Assembly: GCA_035477215.1 (NCBI GenBank)
Contig: DATIKU010000044.1
Location: 62,001 to 126,000 of the forward strand
DNA from: Spirochaetota bacterium
GTDB lineage: Bacteria; Spirochaetota; UBA4802; UBA5368
Direction: 5' to 3'
Length of the DNA stretch: 64,000 bases
How positions within the stretch are numbered: position 1 is the first letter of the stretch; the number at the start of each line of letters is the position of its first letter. Positions 20,051 to 64,000 of the stretch are shown in pieces. A program made the translations under genes and the position numbers. The notes under the pieces were generated by a model. It was not told the DNA's origin and searched no databases. It worked only from the letters and a program-made list of their open reading frames with translations.

Positions 20051-21553
20051 TCAGAACCGGTAGGTCACACGAACGCCGGGCGTGATATTGCCCTTGTCGA
20101 AAAGCAGCTCGGGAGCCATCGAAAACCGTTCCTCGTGCACCCTGCCCGCGCTGATGGAATGCCCGACTGAAAGAACATGCGCCACTTCGATAATTTTAAC
20201 GGCGCCGAGAGCGCCGAGGTAAACCCGGAGGCGCCCGGTGTCTCCTTTCGATTTTCGGTACGAATCGGTTCCCGCGTCGTAGCGCTGGGCGGACGAATAC
20301 TCGCGCAGGACCGAGTAGACCAGCGCGTTATTTAAGTGAAAATAAATGTAACCCCAGAAGCGGTGTCCCTTGTAGAAGTGCCCCCCTCCCCCCGACACCA
20401 TGGAAAGAAAGACCGCCGTCGGATTTCCCCCGATCACCGGCTGTGTTCCCTGGTAAAGGGAGGCGTCGCGCAAATACTGGTGCGCGAACGCGTCGACGAA
20501 AAGCGGAAGCCCCCCCGCGCACAGCATGTACAGGCCGAAGTTGTATCGCGCCGCGGTCTCGCGCGGAACGTCGCGTTTATCGCTTCGCAGGTCCTTCGGC
20601 CGGCGAAGCAGCCCGCTCGCCTCGAGGTAGAGCCATGGCGCCGCGTTCACGGCCCAGAGCGAAAGCCCCTCGAAGTCCCCGTAATGGTAGTATCCCAGCG
20701 GCGCCATGATCGGCATCGAGGCGCTCGCGGGAACGCTGAAAATCGCGGCGAGGATCGGGTCGGAATAACCCGGGTTCTGAAAAACGGTTTCCTCCTTCCG
20801 CGCCCGGTGCAGGTCGGCCATCCGCGCCGCCTCGTCCTGAAAGCCCGTCAGTATATAATCTCCCGCCCGCGGCGTAGCCGGCCCGATGCCCGTCACGCGG
20901 CCGTTTTCGTCTATTCGAACGCGTCCAGCGGTTTCGACCGTATACACGACATCGTCTTCCGGGGACGTGCGCGCCGGCCGGAACAGCTCGTACTCGCCGG
21001 CGCTCACCCCCGCGTCCCCCGGAACGGGGAACCCTCCCCTGCCGTCTTCGATCAGCGGCACCGAAAGCATGAAACGGGACAGGGCGCCGGCCAAGGCCAG
21101 TACGGCATGCTCTTCGCATATAAGTGAAAGCTCCCTTGCACCGAGCACGGCCGTGCCCTGGAACAGCTCGGCGCGATACCGGTACAGCATTTTTCCGAAA
21201 TACGGCGCGTCGATTCCATAGGCCTCGATCTCGATCGTGAGCGCGCTCCCCCTGTCGTCCACCCTGCCATGCAATAGAAGCGACACTCCCGCCGTCCGCG
21301 CAAACCTGATAATGCAGGCCTCGGCGTCGCACCCGTAACGGGACAGCTGGTCGGCGAGCAGATGTCGGTAGATCTGCTCGAACGCCCCGGACGAGCGCAG
21401 GGCCGCCGAGAGGCTTTCCGCAAGCATCTCCGCGATCCGCGCCCCGCGCGGGGACTTCGCCTCGATGCCGGCCATGGCCGCGATCGGCCGGGCGGCGAAT
21501 GCCGGTGTTACGCCCAATACGAGCAAAATCGCGATGGTGGATTCCATCGTCAT
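20051..21553 (-). CDS. Exported CsgG/TolB-N-like protein with a C-terminal DUF5683-like segment
   Basis: About 500 residues from the ATG at 21553, which gives a proper signal peptide (STIAILLVLGVTPAFAA); the open frame upstream to 21784 has no such signal. Residues 25-150 look like the CsgG/TolB N-terminal type: SLSAALRSSGAFEQIYR, then GCDAEACIIRFARTAGVSLLLHGRV, the pattern of proteins that bind at the outer membrane. The C-terminus has VSGGGGHFYKGHRFWGY, the counterpart of the motif in the downstream paralogue, and ends in a barrel-like TPGVRVTYRF. Its function is unknown. Confidence 0.72.
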   Translation of the reverse strand: MTMESTIAILLVLGVTPAFAARPIAAMAGIEAKSPRGARIAEMLAESLSAALRSSGAFEQIYRHLLADQLSRYGCDAEACIIRFARTAGVSLLLHGRVDDRGSALTIEIEAYGIDAPYFGKMLYRYRAELFQGTAVLGARELSLICEEHAVLALAGALSRFMLSVPLIEDGRGGFPVPGDAGVSAGEYELFRPARTSPEDDVVYTVETAGRVRIDENGRVTGIGPATPRAGDYILTGFQDEAARMADLHRARKEETVFQNPGYSDPILAAIFSVPASASMPIMAPLGYYHYGDFEGLSLWAVNAAPWLYLEASGLLRRPKDLRSDKRDVPRETAARYNFGLYMLCAGGLPLFVDAFAHQYLRDASLYQGTQPVIGGNPTAVFLSMVSGGGGHFYKGHRFWGYIYFHLNNALVYSVLREYSSAQRYDAGTDSYRKSKGDTGRLRVYLGALGAVKIIEVAHVLSVGHSISAGRVHEERFSMAPELLFDKGNITPGVRVTYRF

Positions 21554-21787
21554 TTTCCGGAGAATGGCGCATGTTGAGTCCTTTGTGGGAAGCATAACCG
21601 CACGAATAGTAGCCGCGTGCGGGTCGAACGCAAGCACTTTAACGGGGAACGACCAAAAGCATGCGGCCGAGCGATGTAAAATCCGCTTTACTTGCCACAG
21701 GCTCGCAGGCCATACTGTTTTCACGGGCCTGTGCGCTCGGCACGGAAAGCGGCGGAGGCCGGGAGAATCAGACACGGGAGGCATTGA

Positions 21788-22297
21788 ATGGATTCCATCG
21801 TCACCATGCGAAGGTTCAAATCGGTCGGCGATTTTCTAACCCGTTTGGCCGGGCTCTTTCGGGGGCCTCTTTTCATTTCGACCATTCTAAAAACTGACGG
21901 TCTGTTCCGTGAAAAAATCCTCCTAACCGTAACGCTCGCCAATAATTGTTATGCCTGAATGAGCATGCACTCCGCCGCGGGCCGGCGGCTCGGACTCACC
22001 GACGCACAGATTGAAGATCTCCTCACGCTCGATCCCCGGAAGTTCGACCACCGCGAATGGCTGGCCCTCAGATACGCGCAGGACCGCGCCTTCCTCGACG
22101 GGGCCGAGCCCGCCGGAAACTATGTCCGGGAATATCGCCGGCACTATACTGAGGCGGAACGCGCCAGAATATCCAAGCTCATTACCGCGATGCAGTTCGC
22201 CAACTACTGGAACAATACGTTCAGGAGGAGGCCGTGGAACAAATCCCGCGAGGGCTCGGCGATATCATGCCGGACGAAGGCCCAGCCCCGAAGTTAA
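21788..22297 (+). CDS. AhpD-like thiol/selenol peroxidase-family protein, predicted selenoprotein (in-frame UGA at 21956-21958)
   Basis: 169 residues if the UGA codon 57 is read as selenocysteine. The upstream ATG at 21788 has GGGAGG six bases before it, while the post-UGA ATG at 21959 has no ribosome site. Around the UGA the frame reads FREKILLTVTLANNCYA-U-MSMHSAAGRRLGL, which fits the AhpD redox motif exactly: Glu42, eleven residues, Cys54, two residues, Sec57, three residues, His61. The carboxymuconolactone-decarboxylase/AhpD fold continues with LTDAQIEDLL and ends FANYWNNTF. A SECIS-like hairpin follows the UGA, and selA, selB, selD and tRNA-Sec are in this window. Known AhpD reduces peroxiredoxins or peroxides. 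The alternative, a nonsense mutation, is less likely. Confidence 0.85.
21959..21991 (+). promoter_or_regulatory. Predicted bacterial SECIS hairpin just after the UGA
   Basis: CCGCCG (21972-21977) pairs perfectly with CGGCGG (21983-21988) around the loop CGGGC. The loop begins 19 bases after the UGA and has G as its second base, matching the published bacterial rule (apical loop 16-37 bases after UGA, a G in the first two loop positions). GAGC (21961-21964) can also pair with GCTC (21988-21991) to lengthen the stem, at the cost of one inner pair. SelB would bind here. Confidence 0.7.
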
Positions 22298-22665
22298 TGC
22301 TCGAGTATTTCGCCAAGGCGCACCCCGTGCACATGACCGGCATACCGGGTCGGTCGGAAGAGACATGTGCCACCGCCTTCGAACGGTTCCAGCCCGCGTC
22401 GCCCCGCAAAAAAAGGCTCTTCGCATGGGCCGTGGAAACCGGCAAGTCGAAATGCCCTAAATCATCAAGTTTTACCGCCGGCGGATCGACGAGCGCACAA
22501 GGGACCTGGGCGGGTCGAGAAGATCAAGAATTCCACCCTGCTTAGCATACCCTTCACCCGGGAGAACGGGGAGATCACGCCGACGATGAAAATAAAAAGA
22601 AAGTTATTGAGAAGAAATACGGCGATGTTATAGGTGCGATGTACCGTGACGTGGAGCGGGAATAA
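22234..22665 (+). pseudogene. Decayed long-chain acyl-CoA synthetase (FadD/ACSL family)
   Basis: No intact frame, but three blocks in different frames align with parts of this family. The first (GTG 22234, after AGGAGGAGG) has FERFQPASPRKKRLFAWAVE, the middle part of ACSL enzymes. The second and third give FYRRRIDERTRDLG then VEKIKNSTLLSIPFTRENGE and ITPTMKIKRK, the C-terminal end. One base added after KRK restores VIEKKYGDVIGAMYRDVERE and a TAA at 22663. About half of the enzyme, including the AMP-binding core, is missing. The remnant overlaps the 3' end of the AhpD-like gene, so the selenoprotein's last residues may also be altered. Confidence 0.7.
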
Positions 22666-23363: not shown

Positions 23364-23415
23364 TCCTCCAAAGCATAAAAAATATTTCCCGTGCGTCGCC
23401 GCCGTGCTATACTCC

Positions 23416-24735
23416 ATGGCCATGGACCAACGCCGCCTGCACATCCTGAACGAAGCCCCGTACGCGGGAGGACCGGTCCTCTACTGGATGAGCCGTGAGC
23501 AGCGCGCCCGCGACAACTGGGCCCTAATTTACGCCCGCGAGAAGGCCATTGAATACCGCGCGCCGCTGGAGGTCTTCTTCTGCCTCTCGCCCGATTTCCT
23601 CGGCGCCGGGGAGGCCCAGTACGCGTTCATGCTCGAGGGGCTCAGGGAGGTCGAGGAGGACCTCCGTTTGCTCGGCATAGCCTTCACCGTCGAGCGCGGG
23701 GATCCCATGACCGCCGCCGCCGCATTTGTCGAAAAGATGAAGGCCGGGCTGGTGGTGACGGACTTCGATCCGCTGCGGATAAAGCTTCGCTGGCGCGATG
23801 GCCTCGCCGCGAAAAGCCGCGTCCCCGTACACGAGGTCGACGCCCATAACATCGTGCCCTGCCGCGTGGCCTCGCCTAAACTGGAATACGGGGCACATAC
23901 GCTCAGAAAAAAAATCCAGCGGCTCCTGCCCGAGTTTCTCCTGCCGTTTCCCGCGCTCAAGAAATTTGACGATCCCGGAGCGCGCCCGCCCGTGGACTGG
24001 AACCGCATGTTTTGCGGGGCGGCTAAATTCAGCATTAAGAGCGGTCCGCGCGCCGCGCGCCGCGCAATGCGGCGCTTCCTTGCCGGCGGTCTCGGGGACT
24101 ATTCGTGGGCCCGCAACGACCCGGCCCGCGACGGCCAGTCAGGCCTCTCTCCGTATCTGCATTTCGGCCAACTCTCGGCCCAGCGCCTCGCCCTCGAGGT
24201 CTCTCGCTCCCCGTTGCGCGGCAGGGACGACTACCTGGAACAGCTCGTTGTCCGCAGGGAACTTTCCGACAACTACTGCCTGTACAATCCGCGGTATGAC
24301 TCGTTGGAGGGAATACCCGGCTGGGCCAGGAAAACGCTCGACAAACATCGCGCCGACCGGCGCGAATTCGTCTATACCCGCGATGAACTCGAGCACGCGC
24401 GCACACACGATCCGCTCTGGAACGCCGCGCAGACGGGCCTGTTAAAGCTAGGGACGATGCACGGCTACCTTCGAATGTACTGGGCGAAAAAGATACTGGA
24501 GTGGAGCCAATCTCCCGAGGAGGCTTTCGAGACCGCCGTCATCCTCAACGACCGCTACCAGCTTGACGGGCGCGATCCGAACGGGTACGCCGGTATCGCC
24601 TGGAGTATCGGGGGTACGCACGACAGGCCGTGGGGCGAGCGGCCTGTGTTCGGCATGATCCGCTACATGAGTTTCAACGGCTGCAAGTCAAAGTTCAACA
24701 TACGCACGTACATCGAATCAATCGAAAACGCATAA
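23416..24735 (+). CDS. phr: Class II CPD deoxyribodipyrimidine photolyase
   Basis: 439 residues from 23416 (another ATG at 23422; a GTG at 23404). The N-terminus GGPVLYWMSREQRARDNWAL is typical of class II photolyases, as are YLHFGQLSAQRLAL, the FAD-site region VRRELSDNYCLYNPRYDS and the C-terminal GTHDRPWGERPVFGMIRYMS. The enzyme uses blue light and FADH- to split cyclobutane pyrimidine dimers. Its presence suggests the host meets light at least sometimes. It is followed by a terminator and converges on sppA. Confidence 0.95.
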   Translation: MAMDQRRLHILNEAPYAGGPVLYWMSREQRARDNWALIYAREKAIEYRAPLEVFFCLSPDFLGAGEAQYAFMLEGLREVEEDLRLLGIAFTVERGDPMTAAAAFVEKMKAGLVVTDFDPLRIKLRWRDGLAAKSRVPVHEVDAHNIVPCRVASPKLEYGAHTLRKKIQRLLPEFLLPFPALKKFDDPGARPPVDWNRMFCGAAKFSIKSGPRAARRAMRRFLAGGLGDYSWARNDPARDGQSGLSPYLHFGQLSAQRLALEVSRSPLRGRDDYLEQLVVRRELSDNYCLYNPRYDSLEGIPGWARKTLDKHRADRREFVYTRDELEHARTHDPLWNAAQTGLLKLGTMHGYLRMYWAKKILEWSQSPEEAFETAVILNDRYQLDGRDPNGYAGIAWSIGGTHDRPWGERPVFGMIRYMSFNGCKSKFNIRTYIESIENA

Positions 24736-59645: not shown

Positions 59646-61469
59646 TCAGGCTTTCATGCGAAAATCGCCGATGCGCTTTATAAGGCCGTCCCCCTCCATC
59701 CTGTTGAGGAGGGGGATGATGTACTTTCTCGAAAATGAAGTCGCATCCTTCGCCTCCGCTATGCTGATCTTTTCGTTTCCTTCGAAGAGAGCCATCACCT
59801 TTATTCTCAGTTCATCGTATACCTCGCGATGGAGGATTATGTTGCCGTCGAGGCTCACGGCGAATCCGAGGCGGATGAGGTCCCCCAGGTGCCTCTTCCC
59901 GGCCTCGTCGGCGGATTTGCCGAGCTCGACGCCTTCGAGCCCCCGGCCCCGCAGCGTATCGAGTACCGTTTTCTTCTCGTCCGGCAGGGCGTCCACGGTA
60001 ACAGAGTCCCCTCCGAAGAAGCGCCCGTCTTTCTCAATAATGCACTGCTGCCTGACGATGGCGGGGAGGAGCACTTTGCAGAGATCAAGGTCCAGCCCGG
60101 TTTTATCGGCGATCTCCCTCAGGTTGGGACCGATCGAGCCCGCTATGGTTTCGGCCACCATGGCGAGCGCTTCGGCATGAAAGCTCGCTTCGAGGAGAAA
60201 ATCCCCGGCCCTTAGCACGGCACCGCGTTCGATGAGCGACTCGATAACTCGCTCCATCGCGCGCTCGTTTTCCGGGAAAATCGAGACGATCCACGACCAT
60301 GGCACCGCGCGGCGCACTGCGACAATAAACAGGACGAACTCGTCCCGCGTGTATTTCGAGAAAATCGGAAGGTGCAGGCGCACGATGCGCCGTCCGCCCG
60401 CCGAGCGGTAGTCGGGAAGCAGCACCTCCCCGCCGCCGATGATGCGGAATCCCCCAGGATGCGTGACGATGAAGCGCTGCCCCGGATAGAAGAACCAGGG
60501 CGCGTCGAACTTGACACGGAGGACACGGTCCTCTTCGCCGCGGTCCTCATCATCCAGAAGGATGAACTTGCCTTTCAGGGCCGTCGTGCCCACGAGCATT
60601 TCTATGCCCGTGTTGTTTTTCAGCCCTCCCTTTTTATCGAGGAGCCTCACGCGCACAACGACGTCCGCGGACTGCGTGAAAAAGTTTTTTCCCGTCACGA
60701 TATCGCCGCGGCCGATCTCCTCGACCGCCACGCCGGAGATGTTGAGCGCCGTCCTCTGCGACGGAACGCCCTCCTCCCGGGCGCTGTGATGGCTCTCTAT
60801 TTTCTTGACCCTCGCCTCGCGCATCAGCGGAAGCAGTAATATCGGATCGTCCTCCTTGAACCTGCCATTTTTAAGCGTGCCCGTTACGATGGTGCCGTAG
60901 CCCTTCGAGGCGAAAACGCGATCGACGAACAGGTAGGGTTTATGGGCGTCGGGTGCCCTGGCGAGCTTTCGAAGATTGGCCAGCAGCACATCCCTCAGCT
61001 CCTCGACGCCATCCCCCGTCTTCGCCGAGACGCGCACGATATCGCAGCCCGCGTAGCGGGTGCCCACCATGCGCTCCTCGACCTCGGCGGCCACGAAAGC
61101 GATCATCTCCTCGTCGGCGGAGTCGATCTTGTTTAGCGCGACTATGATTCGCTCGACCCCGAGGAGCATCAGCACGCGGAAGTGGTCCTCGGTCTGCGGC
61201 ATCCAGCCGTCGTCGACGGCGATCACCAGGATCGCCAGGTCGACCCCCCATGCCCCCACCACCATGTTGCGGATAAAGCGCTCGTGTCCCGGAACGTCGA
61301 TAATGCCCACGGTGCCGAATTTCGGGTAGCTTATGCTGGCAAATCCGATGTCGATGGTCATCTCGCGCGCCTTCTCCTCGGGGAGTCGGTCGCAATCGAT
61401 GCCGGTGAGCGCGCGTATGAGGCTTGTTTTGCCGTGGTCGATGTGTCCGGATGTTCCGACGATGTACAT
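59646..61469 (-). CDS. selB: Selenocysteine-specific elongation factor SelB
   Basis: 607 residues from ATG 61469, which overlaps the selA stop (TGATG); the frame upstream lies within selA. GTPase motifs [29 protein letters not shown] and [11 protein letters not shown] are intact, followed by the EF-Tu-like beta-barrel domains and a C-terminal half of winged-helix repeats that bind the SECIS RNA. SelB brings Sec-tRNA to UGA codons. A substrate is in the window: the AhpD-like gene at 21788. Confidence 0.95.
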
Positions 61470-62848
61470 CAGGTGCCGCCCGGAAGGATTCGGTCTATCG
61501 ACGCGGCCAGCGCCGGTATGTCGTGCGCGAGCACGGTCCGAAGGTCGAGGGTGAAACAATCGTCGAGGATATACCCGACGACCGGGACATCCTCGTCAAT
61601 AAAACGCGCGTACAACTCGTCCGCGCTCTGGCCCGGCACGACAATCCGTATACCGGCGCTCTCTATCTCGCGCGCGGGAAGCGAGCCGCCTCCGTAGGTG
61701 CTTTTAAGCGCGGCCCGCCTGATACAATCGCGTTTACCGGAAGCTTTCACCGCGCGAAGAAGCCGGGCCGTCTTCCGTTCGACATCATGCCGGCTCTGGT
61801 GGATGATATCCCACAGCGCGAGCGATGCTCCGCCGTCGTTGGCGTGCCGCAGCAGAGTCTCCTGAAGTATAAAGTAGGTTATCTTGTCGACGCGGAGCAT
61901 CCGCATGAGCGGATTTTTCCTCAGGGCGGCGACGAGGTCTTTCCTGCCGACAATGATTCCCGCCTGGCAGGCCCCGAGGAGCTTGTCGCCGCTGAAGCTG
62001 ACAAGGTCCATACCCTGGACAAGCTCCGATAGGACCGTCGGTTCGAAGTCGGCGCCGAGTCGTTCGTCGCGGACCAGGTTACCGCTTCCAAGGTCACGCA
62101 CAAGGAGCACGCCCTCGCCCTTCAGGGCCGCCAGCTCGCGAAGCGACGGCGACGATGCGAAGCCCTCGAGCGTGAAATTTGAGCGATGCGCCGAAAATAT
62201 CATCGCCGTTGCGGGTCCCATGGCGCGCCGGTAGTCCTCGATATCGGTGATGTTGGTGGTGCCCACCTCGACAAGGCGCGCTCCCGTCCGCTCCATTATG
62301 TCCGGAATGCGGAAACCGCCCCCGATCTGTATGAGCTCGCCGCGCGAGACGATCACCTCCCGGCCGGCGCCGAATTGATTGAGAATGAGAAAAACGCTCG
62401 ATGCGTTGTTGTTTACGATCAGCGCGTCCTCGGCGCCGGTCAGCCTGCACACAAGCTCCTCGGCGAAGCCGCCGCGCCGTCCGCGACGACGTTCGGGCAG
62501 GTAGAGCTCGAGGTTGCAGTAGCCGCACAGCTCGGCGGACATTTTCTCGAGTATTTCCCGCGCTATCGGCGCGCGCCCCAGGTTTGTGTGGATGATGACG
62601 CCGGTACCGTTGATGACGCGCTGGAGTTTCTCGCGCCGTTTCGACCGGCATCGCCGCTCGATGTCCGCAACGAGTCCGTCCGTGGAGGGTGACCCGCCGT
62701 CGGTGATCCCGGCGCGGAAGGCGTCGATGACTTCGCGGATAACGGCGACCACGGCCGAGCGGCCGAGTTCATCGATATGCGCCGACGCCCCCGAAAGCAG
62801 CGTCTCAACCTGGGGGATGGATCTGAAGAGGTTTTCGGTCTTTTCCAT
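61469..62848 (-). CDS. selA: L-seryl-tRNA(Sec) selenium transferase
   Basis: 459 residues. [17 protein letters not shown], the PLP lysine in [15 protein letters not shown] and the [17 protein letters not shown] segment are typical of SelA, which converts Ser-tRNA(Sec) to Sec-tRNA(Sec). Its start is 14 bp after the tRNA-Sec gene, so the gene and its substrate RNA are probably one transcript. Confidence 0.96.
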
Positions 62849-62862
62849 CGGGATACACCATG

Positions 62863-62952
62863 CGGAAGGGGCAGGAATCGAACCTGCCGCTGCAATAAAT
62901 TACAGCCCACGGTTTTGAAGACCGCGGGGGCCACCGGACCCCATCCTCTTCC
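62863..62952 (-). tRNA. selC: tRNA-Sec (anticodon UCA)
   Basis: 90 nt with discriminator G. The anticodon arm CGCGGT-CTTCAAA-ACCGTG carries UCA, and the 5' GGAAGAGG and 3' CCCCTTCC ends make the long acceptor stem of tRNA-Sec, with one A-C mismatch at the sixth pair. The long variable arm and T arm (GCAGG-TTCGATT-CCTGC) are present. The 3' CCA is not encoded (the genome has CAT). Confidence 0.95.
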
Positions 62953-63022
62953 CTGCGATTCGTTTTAAGGCTCTCTCGTTGTAGGCATTAGACCGGGAAG
63001 TGTCAATAATTTTATTCGGGCC

Positions 63023-64000
63023 TCAGGCAAGGCGGAGGACGGGACGGTCGGATTTAGCGACAGACCCGATACGTTTCGCGGCGGTAACCCCGCGCGCGTG
63101 AAGCCCGGCGAGGAGCGCGTCGCACTCGGTCGCGGGAAGGGCGACGAGCAGCCCGCCCGAAGTCTGAGGATCGAAGGCGATATCGGCGAGCTCGCGACTA
63201 ACCGCCGCGTCGATTGCGCACAGGTCGCCGACATGGTCCCTGTTGCGGTACATCCCGCCCGGGATGAGTCCCCTGGCCGCGTTGTCCGCGGCGCCGGGCA
63301 GAATCGGAAGGGCTGCCGAATCCACGACCACCTCGAGCGAATCGCCGGCGAGCATCTCGCGCAGGTGGCCCATAAGGCCGAAACCGGTAACGTCGGTGCA
63401 GGCGTGGACGGAAAAACCCTCCAGCGCGGCCGCGGCGTCGCGATTGAGCGCCCGCATGGTTTCGATGAAGGGGCCGAGTATGGCCGGGTCGCCTTCTCCG
63501 GCCTTTACCGCGGTGCCGATGATCCCGGTTCCCAGCGCCTTGGTGAGCACCAGCGCGTCGCCCTCGCGCAGCCCGCAGTTTTTCAGCGCTTTCGCCGGAT
63601 GAACAATCCCGGTAACGGAAACGCCGTATTTGAGCTCCTCGTCCTCGACGCTGTGGCCGCCAAGGAGCTGTACGCCGGCTTCGTTCAGAACGTCAAGCCC
63701 TCCCTGGAGAATGCGCGCGAGGACGTCCATGCTGAACTTTTTGGTGGGGAAACAAACGATATTCATTGCGGTCACAGGCCTGCCACCCATGGCGTAGACA
63801 TCCGAAAGGCCGTTCGCGGCCGCTATCTGTCCGAAGACAAAAGGATCGTCCACGATGGGCGTAAAGAAGTCCACCGTCTGGATAAGCGCGATCTCGTCCG
63901 TCAGCCGGTACACGCCTGCGTCATCGCTGTTTTCCATGCCCACTATGACCCGCTCGTCATAGGGAATGGAAAGCCGCTGCATCACCTGGGCCAGCTCCGC
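63023..64000 (-). CDS. selD: Selenide, water dikinase (5' end cut by the window edge)
   Basis: About 325 codons are in view; the frame stays open to 64000 (AELAQVMQRLS before the first Met), so the N-terminus with the active Cys or Sec lies outside. Family motifs seen are the DDAGVYRL metal site, GQIAAANGLSDVYAMGGRPVTAMNI, GGHSVEDEELKYG and TGFGLMGHLREM. SelD makes selenophosphate, the selenium donor for SelA. Whether it is itself a selenoprotein, as in some bacteria, cannot be told here. Confidence 0.93.
   Translation of the reverse strand, partial: AELAQVMQRLSIPYDERVIVGMENSDDAGVYRLTDEIALIQTVDFFTPIVDDPFVFGQIAAANGLSDVYAMGGRPVTAMNIVCFPTKKFSMDVLARILQGGLDVLNEAGVQLLGGHSVEDEELKYGVSVTGIVHPAKALKNCGLREGDALVLTKALGTGIIGTAVKAGEGDPAILGPFIETMRALNRDAAAALEGFSVHACTDVTGFGLMGHLREMLAGDSLEVVVDSAALPILPGAADNAARGLIPGGMYRNRDHVGDLCAIDAAVSRELADIAFDPQTSGGLLVALPATECDALLAGLHARGVTAAKRIGSVAKSDRPVLRLA

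Follow-up and report, generated by a model that had tools for sequence, protein, structure and literature searches.

CxxU selenoproteins of the AhpD-like/CMD type were described in 2005 from the Sargasso Sea, and subsequently from GOS (PMC1088965, PMC2398784), and AhpD-like selenoproteins were also found in sequenced bacterial genomes, e.g. those of Geobacter and Alkaliphilus (PMC1794560). The first-pass annotation of the DNA studied here had regarded them as a class known from environmental data; known the class is, but from sequenced genomes as well. A 2026 review lists several AhpD-type selenoprotein families (PMC13188914). For spirochaetes, a search of the available papers for AhpD-like selenoproteins surfaced only a 2006 survey, whose one selenoprotein-rich spirochaete was without an AhpD-like selenoprotein. 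The catalytic relay of PA0269 from Pseudomonas aeruginosa and of AhpD from M. tuberculosis has the form Glu-x11-Cys-x-(Tyr/His)-Cys-x3-His (PMC3141380).

We analyzed a stretch of 64,000 nucleotides from a Spirochaetota genome, termed the window throughout the text, in which reading through one in-frame UGA yields a predicted AhpD/CMD-family selenoprotein. A six-frame search with stops read through detected orthologues, at 37-84% identity, in 16 out of 46 genomes belonging to the same order of Spirochaetota. The features of the gene are the following:

21776-21781, plus strand: ribosome-binding site GGGAGG, from sequence
21788-22297, plus strand: predicted AhpD/CMD-family selenoprotein gene, 169 aa followed by TAA, Sec as codon 57
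21911-21913, plus strand: codon 42, the proton-relay Glu of AhpD, invariant in 16/16
21947-21949, plus strand: codon 54, first Cys of C-x-x-U, invariant
21956-21958, plus strand: in-frame UGA (Sec57) where Cys homologues have the second Cys of their CxxC; 16/16 orthologues carry TGA
21968-21970, plus strand: codon 61, relay His, invariant
22268-22270, plus strand: codon 161, Cys of the C-terminal tail, conserved

The frame opens with an ATG after GGGAGG, a site likewise found 5' of the orthologues L002 and L003, and runs through 56 open codons, the UGA and 112 further codons to a TAA. The first-pass annotation had joined the 56-codon segment and its ribosome-binding site to the downstream frame across the UGA, and on re-check coordinates, frame and the length of 169 residues proved exact. 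When the window was scanned in full for frames joined by a TGA, 20 candidates lay outside genes or extended one. Since C-x-x-UGA occurred in just one of them, at 21956-21958, the AhpD-type reading is more than a product of chance. A simple gene finder called only the part after the UGA in 4 genomes and an antisense frame in 6. Long antisense open frames over the Sec gene were observed at L063, L065, L066, L067, L068 and L071; these might get annotated instead.

Assignment to the CMD/AhpD families was borne out by HMM searches, in which the joined 169-residue protein passed the curated cut-offs of PF02627 CMD (8.3e-7, 29.4 bits, cut-off 23) and TIGR00778 AhpD core (3.5e-7, 29.6 bits, cut-off 27.8). 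The part after the UGA alone reached 12.3 bits against CMD, below the cut-off. The catalytic E-x11-C-x2-C-x3-H is present with Sec for the second Cys. Described earlier as an exact match, the motif is exact in its spacing (E42-x11-C54-x2-U57-x3-H61), but the proton relay comprises only four of its five residues: the 16 orthologues carry Ala, Thr or Gly at the fifth, which precedes U57 and corresponds to His132 of M. tuberculosis AhpD and Tyr50 of PA0269. Among solved structures, the best matches in both sequence and fold were AhpD-like, namely PA0269 (2ijc, 2o4d, 7xw1) and Atu0492. The structure model, of only moderate confidence, was all-helical with a mean pLDDT of 61 and a tail below 50, and the top 30 PDB fold matches of this pLDDT 61 model were AhpD/CMD-like (best E 2e-3, TM 0.52-0.64). 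No second gene with a CMD domain was detected in the genome, which is 95% complete.

All 16 orthologues carry an in-frame TGA at the Sec57 position, where Cys, TAA and TAG never occur. E42, C54, U57, H61 and 19 other residues are invariant, and only the tail past about residue 150 is variable. The nearest named records to the window protein belong to the Spirochaetes MAGs Prado230 and Go_SlDig_bin_136. Sec members scored at least 219 bits versus at most 68 bits for Cys homologues. The next homologues beyond the Sec subfamily have a plain CxxC with x3-H, from which the UGA is fixed as the second Cys; the earlier placement of Sec at the position of an AhpD Cys agrees with the Cys found at the aligned residue of the homologues (C-x2-C-x3-H). 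A Cys form of the subfamily was found neither in the 46 genomes of the order nor in 393 genomes drawn from the phylum. Searching viral contigs gave no homologues, plasmids gave a single match (31%, Halomicrobium), and a scan of genome contigs with exact peptide patterns gave only two loci, both of the same genus. In the tree, one branch of moderate support (72/86, 70% of bootstrap trees) sets the 16 Sec proteins apart, and they probably share one origin, though this is not certain.

The CxxU proteins from the Sargasso Sea and GOS share with the window protein the CMD/AhpD domain, the Sec that ends C-x-x-U, the in-frame UGA and a hairpin downstream of it. Their descriptions set them apart, as families of marine metagenomes under COG2128 and PF02627, from the Spirochaetota family with its tail Cys. 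The closest curated (seleno)protein model by covered length was NF053654, YciW-related (seleno)protein, with residues 20-144 matching profile positions 40-168 of 179. At 30 bits versus a cut-off of 310 the window protein is not a member, and no genome of the phylum sample passed this cut-off. NF041047, the GSU3128 family (seleno)protein and distant AhpD homolog (PMC13188914), has the CxxU core motif in common with the window protein, which is no member here either (17.7 bits versus a cut-off of 110, only the core matched). PA0269 (2o4d, 2ijc, 7xw1), the best PDB match, shows the same Glu-x11-Cys-x2-Cys-x3-His relay early in the chain; it differs by Cys in place of Sec, by an identity of only about 21%, and by its relay Tyr50, which is Ala, Thr or Gly in the window family. 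As the protein fails both curated cut-offs and the literature search yielded no AhpD-like selenoprotein of spirochaetes, we call it a new subfamily. The Spirochaetota Sec AhpD proteins thus apparently constitute a new, Sec-only subfamily of an already known kind of selenoprotein.

Behind the UGA, folding revealed a candidate recoding element:

21972-21989, plus strand: putative SECIS-like hairpin within the open frame, beginning 13-15 nt 3' of the UGA and with Gs in its apical loop, register approximate

In single-sequence folding, the 48 nt of the window formed a GC-rich hairpin which was no more stable than shuffles (z -0.31) and, compared to synonymous variants, not significant alone (z -0.93). 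Across the 16 orthologues, the 36 nt following the UGA were more stable than protein-preserving synonymous variants (mean z -1.20, t-test p 6e-5, a value overstated because the test counts orthologues as independent). Four control segments within the same genes showed no excess stability versus synonymous variants. RNAalifold recovered just a 3-bp stem shared across orthologues, because the register of the hairpin shifts between clades. The recoding fold signal is real at the family level and modest. What stands of the SECIS-like hairpin proposed earlier is this family-wide excess, but not a significant structure in the window sequence by itself.

The window also contains the genes for decoding UGA as Sec:

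59646-61559, minus strand: selB (TIGR00475, 310 bits)
61469-62848, minus strand: selA (TIGR00474, 481 bits)
62862-62953, minus strand: selC, tRNA-Sec with UCA anticodon, verified
63023-64000, minus strand: selD, 5' part beyond the window (TIGR00476, 346 bits)

The complete set of selA, selB, selC and selD, previously placed about 40 kb away, was verified for each gene at 37-42 kb from the Sec gene. The active-site codon of SelD is itself a UGA, located on the minus strand just past the window end at 64000 (LTESVKGAGUASKIGPAEL), and a UGA-coded SelD active site is also present in a congener. By comparison, this Sec-coded SelD indicates that the genome decodes UGA as Sec. A tRNA-Sec above the cut-off was found in 15 of the 16 genomes carrying the gene, the sixteenth being 69% complete. 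Gene callers would start selD late, past the UGA of KGAGUASK, as the GTG start at 63985 suggests.

The Sec gene is a solitary gene that diverges from 20051-21784. On its 3' side lies the remainder of another gene:

22280-22650, plus strand: decayed long-chain acyl-CoA synthetase remnant, found by tblastn with the intact L064 gene, extending into the final codons of the Sec gene

Residues 262-316 and 535-607 are left, spread over three frames, which explains the messy 3' side of the Sec gene. A C-terminal frameshift or missing end of the Sec gene was ruled out, as the orthologues share the end point and the tail layout. In the genome G001 an intact acyl-CoA synthetase gene (L064:8208-10037; AMP-binding, 3e-70) lies between the Sec gene and a TetR regulator, and two other genomes of the genus have an NhaA-type antiporter downstream. 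A functional tie to the acyl-CoA synthetase was discarded on account of this variation among congeners. Comparing the neighbourhoods of the orthologues revealed no conserved operon partner beyond near relatives, and named no substrate or partner such as AhpC; in the absence of a conserved partner gene, the function must be read from the protein. Further downstream, 23404-24735 encodes a deoxyribodipyrimidine photolyase (TIGR00591 phr2-like, 548 bits, just below the cut-off of 550).

With a remnant that has frameshifts and a large internal deletion reaching into the last codons, and with a high dN versus the closest relative in the tail past residue ~150, the Sec gene might be suspected of being a pseudogene, namely an AhpD gene inactivated by a nonsense mutation and decaying like its neighbour. 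We consider this exceedingly improbable, as the TGA is retained in 16/16 genomes over the entire identity range and the orthologues hold no other nonsense or frameshift. Homologues starting after the UGA and stops elsewhere in the upstream part of relatives, named beforehand as signs of a pseudogene, were sought and counted zero times each among the orthologues. The dN/dS of the window versus its nearest relative (Nei-Gojobori) was 0.08 for the codons preceding the UGA and 0.16 for those following it, and below 0.3 versus the other copies of the genus; these ratios indicate purifying selection on the codons on both sides. In dN from L003 the window copy is about equal to its sister copy and no more diverged, hence not decaying. 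Very improbable as well is a true stop at the UGA with re-initiation at an AUG right after it, giving two polypeptides that assemble. Such an AUG is found immediately 3' of the UGA in 10/16 orthologues, the window included, but GUA, AUC or AUU occupies this codon in the other six, so that the UGA is conserved and the restart codon is not. The split would moreover separate the Cys of the active-site motif from the His, TAA or TAG never takes the place of the UGA, and the same genome reads UGA as Sec in SelD. From these comparisons, the reading of 21788-22297 with UGA as Sec, i.e. as a real, intact selenoprotein gene and not a broken one, is strongly supported.

The reaction catalyzed is a separate matter. 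A CMD-fold selenoenzyme might perform, instead of peroxide or disulfide reduction, another reduction such as dehalogenation or the reduction of a small molecule. The debrominase Bmp8 (6ohi) is among the CMD-fold relatives and is found by the family profile too, no AhpC partner was recognised beside the gene among the few annotated neighbours, and in G001 the genes neighbouring the Sec gene encode an acyl-CoA synthetase and a regulator of the TetR type. However, the acyl-CoA synthetase link is absent from other relatives, and the structures that come closest in sequence and fold are AhpD-like; weak peroxidase activity has been demonstrated for one of them (PMC3141380). We therefore hold such a different reaction to be unlikely, and by analogy to AhpD a function as thiol-dependent peroxidase or disulfide reductase is likely.

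Overall, the protein is probably a thiol/selenol oxidoreductase of the AhpD/CMD fold with a UGA-coded Sec57, a Glu42/His61 relay, Cys54 as partner and Cys161 taking part in turnover. According to the comparative evidence, SelB and Sec-tRNA would insert Sec at UGA 21956, guided by the hairpin just downstream in the coding sequence. By analogy to AhpD, the Glu42/His61 relay would activate the selenolate of Sec57, which is paired with Cys54. The selenolate would then attack and reduce a peroxide or disulfide, leaving a Sec57-Cys54 selenenylsulfide (Se-S bond). Cys161 may resolve this bond or pass it to a cellular reductant, a less secure step than the preceding ones. A Cys is present in the tail of 16/16 Sec proteins, which is otherwise variable and hydrophilic; this residue had escaped the first-pass annotation. 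Among the 11 Cys homologues in the order, the tails are longer and for the most part hydrophobic, and 8 of the 11 are without a tail Cys. A role of C161 as resolving or relay thiol is plausible. More tentatively, the enzyme could operate a three-residue redox relay in which Sec57 and Cys54 sit in the helical core and the Se-S bond is resolved or exported by the Cys of a C-terminal arm that is mobile and hydrophilic, an arrangement we regard as possible rather than probable. Within this relay, the arm would stand in for the longer and mainly hydrophobic C-terminus of the Cys homologues, which is likewise no more than possible.

The gene adds a selenoprotein subfamily found in several families within a single order of uncultured Spirochaetota. 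It is cut by ordinary ORF rules, and the 16 sequences are enough for a family model that would rescue it. The conserved tail Cys leads to a testable hypothesis on the turnover of a Sec AhpD. Finally, an oxidoreductase kept only as the Sec form across an order provides a useful example for studying the retention of Sec.
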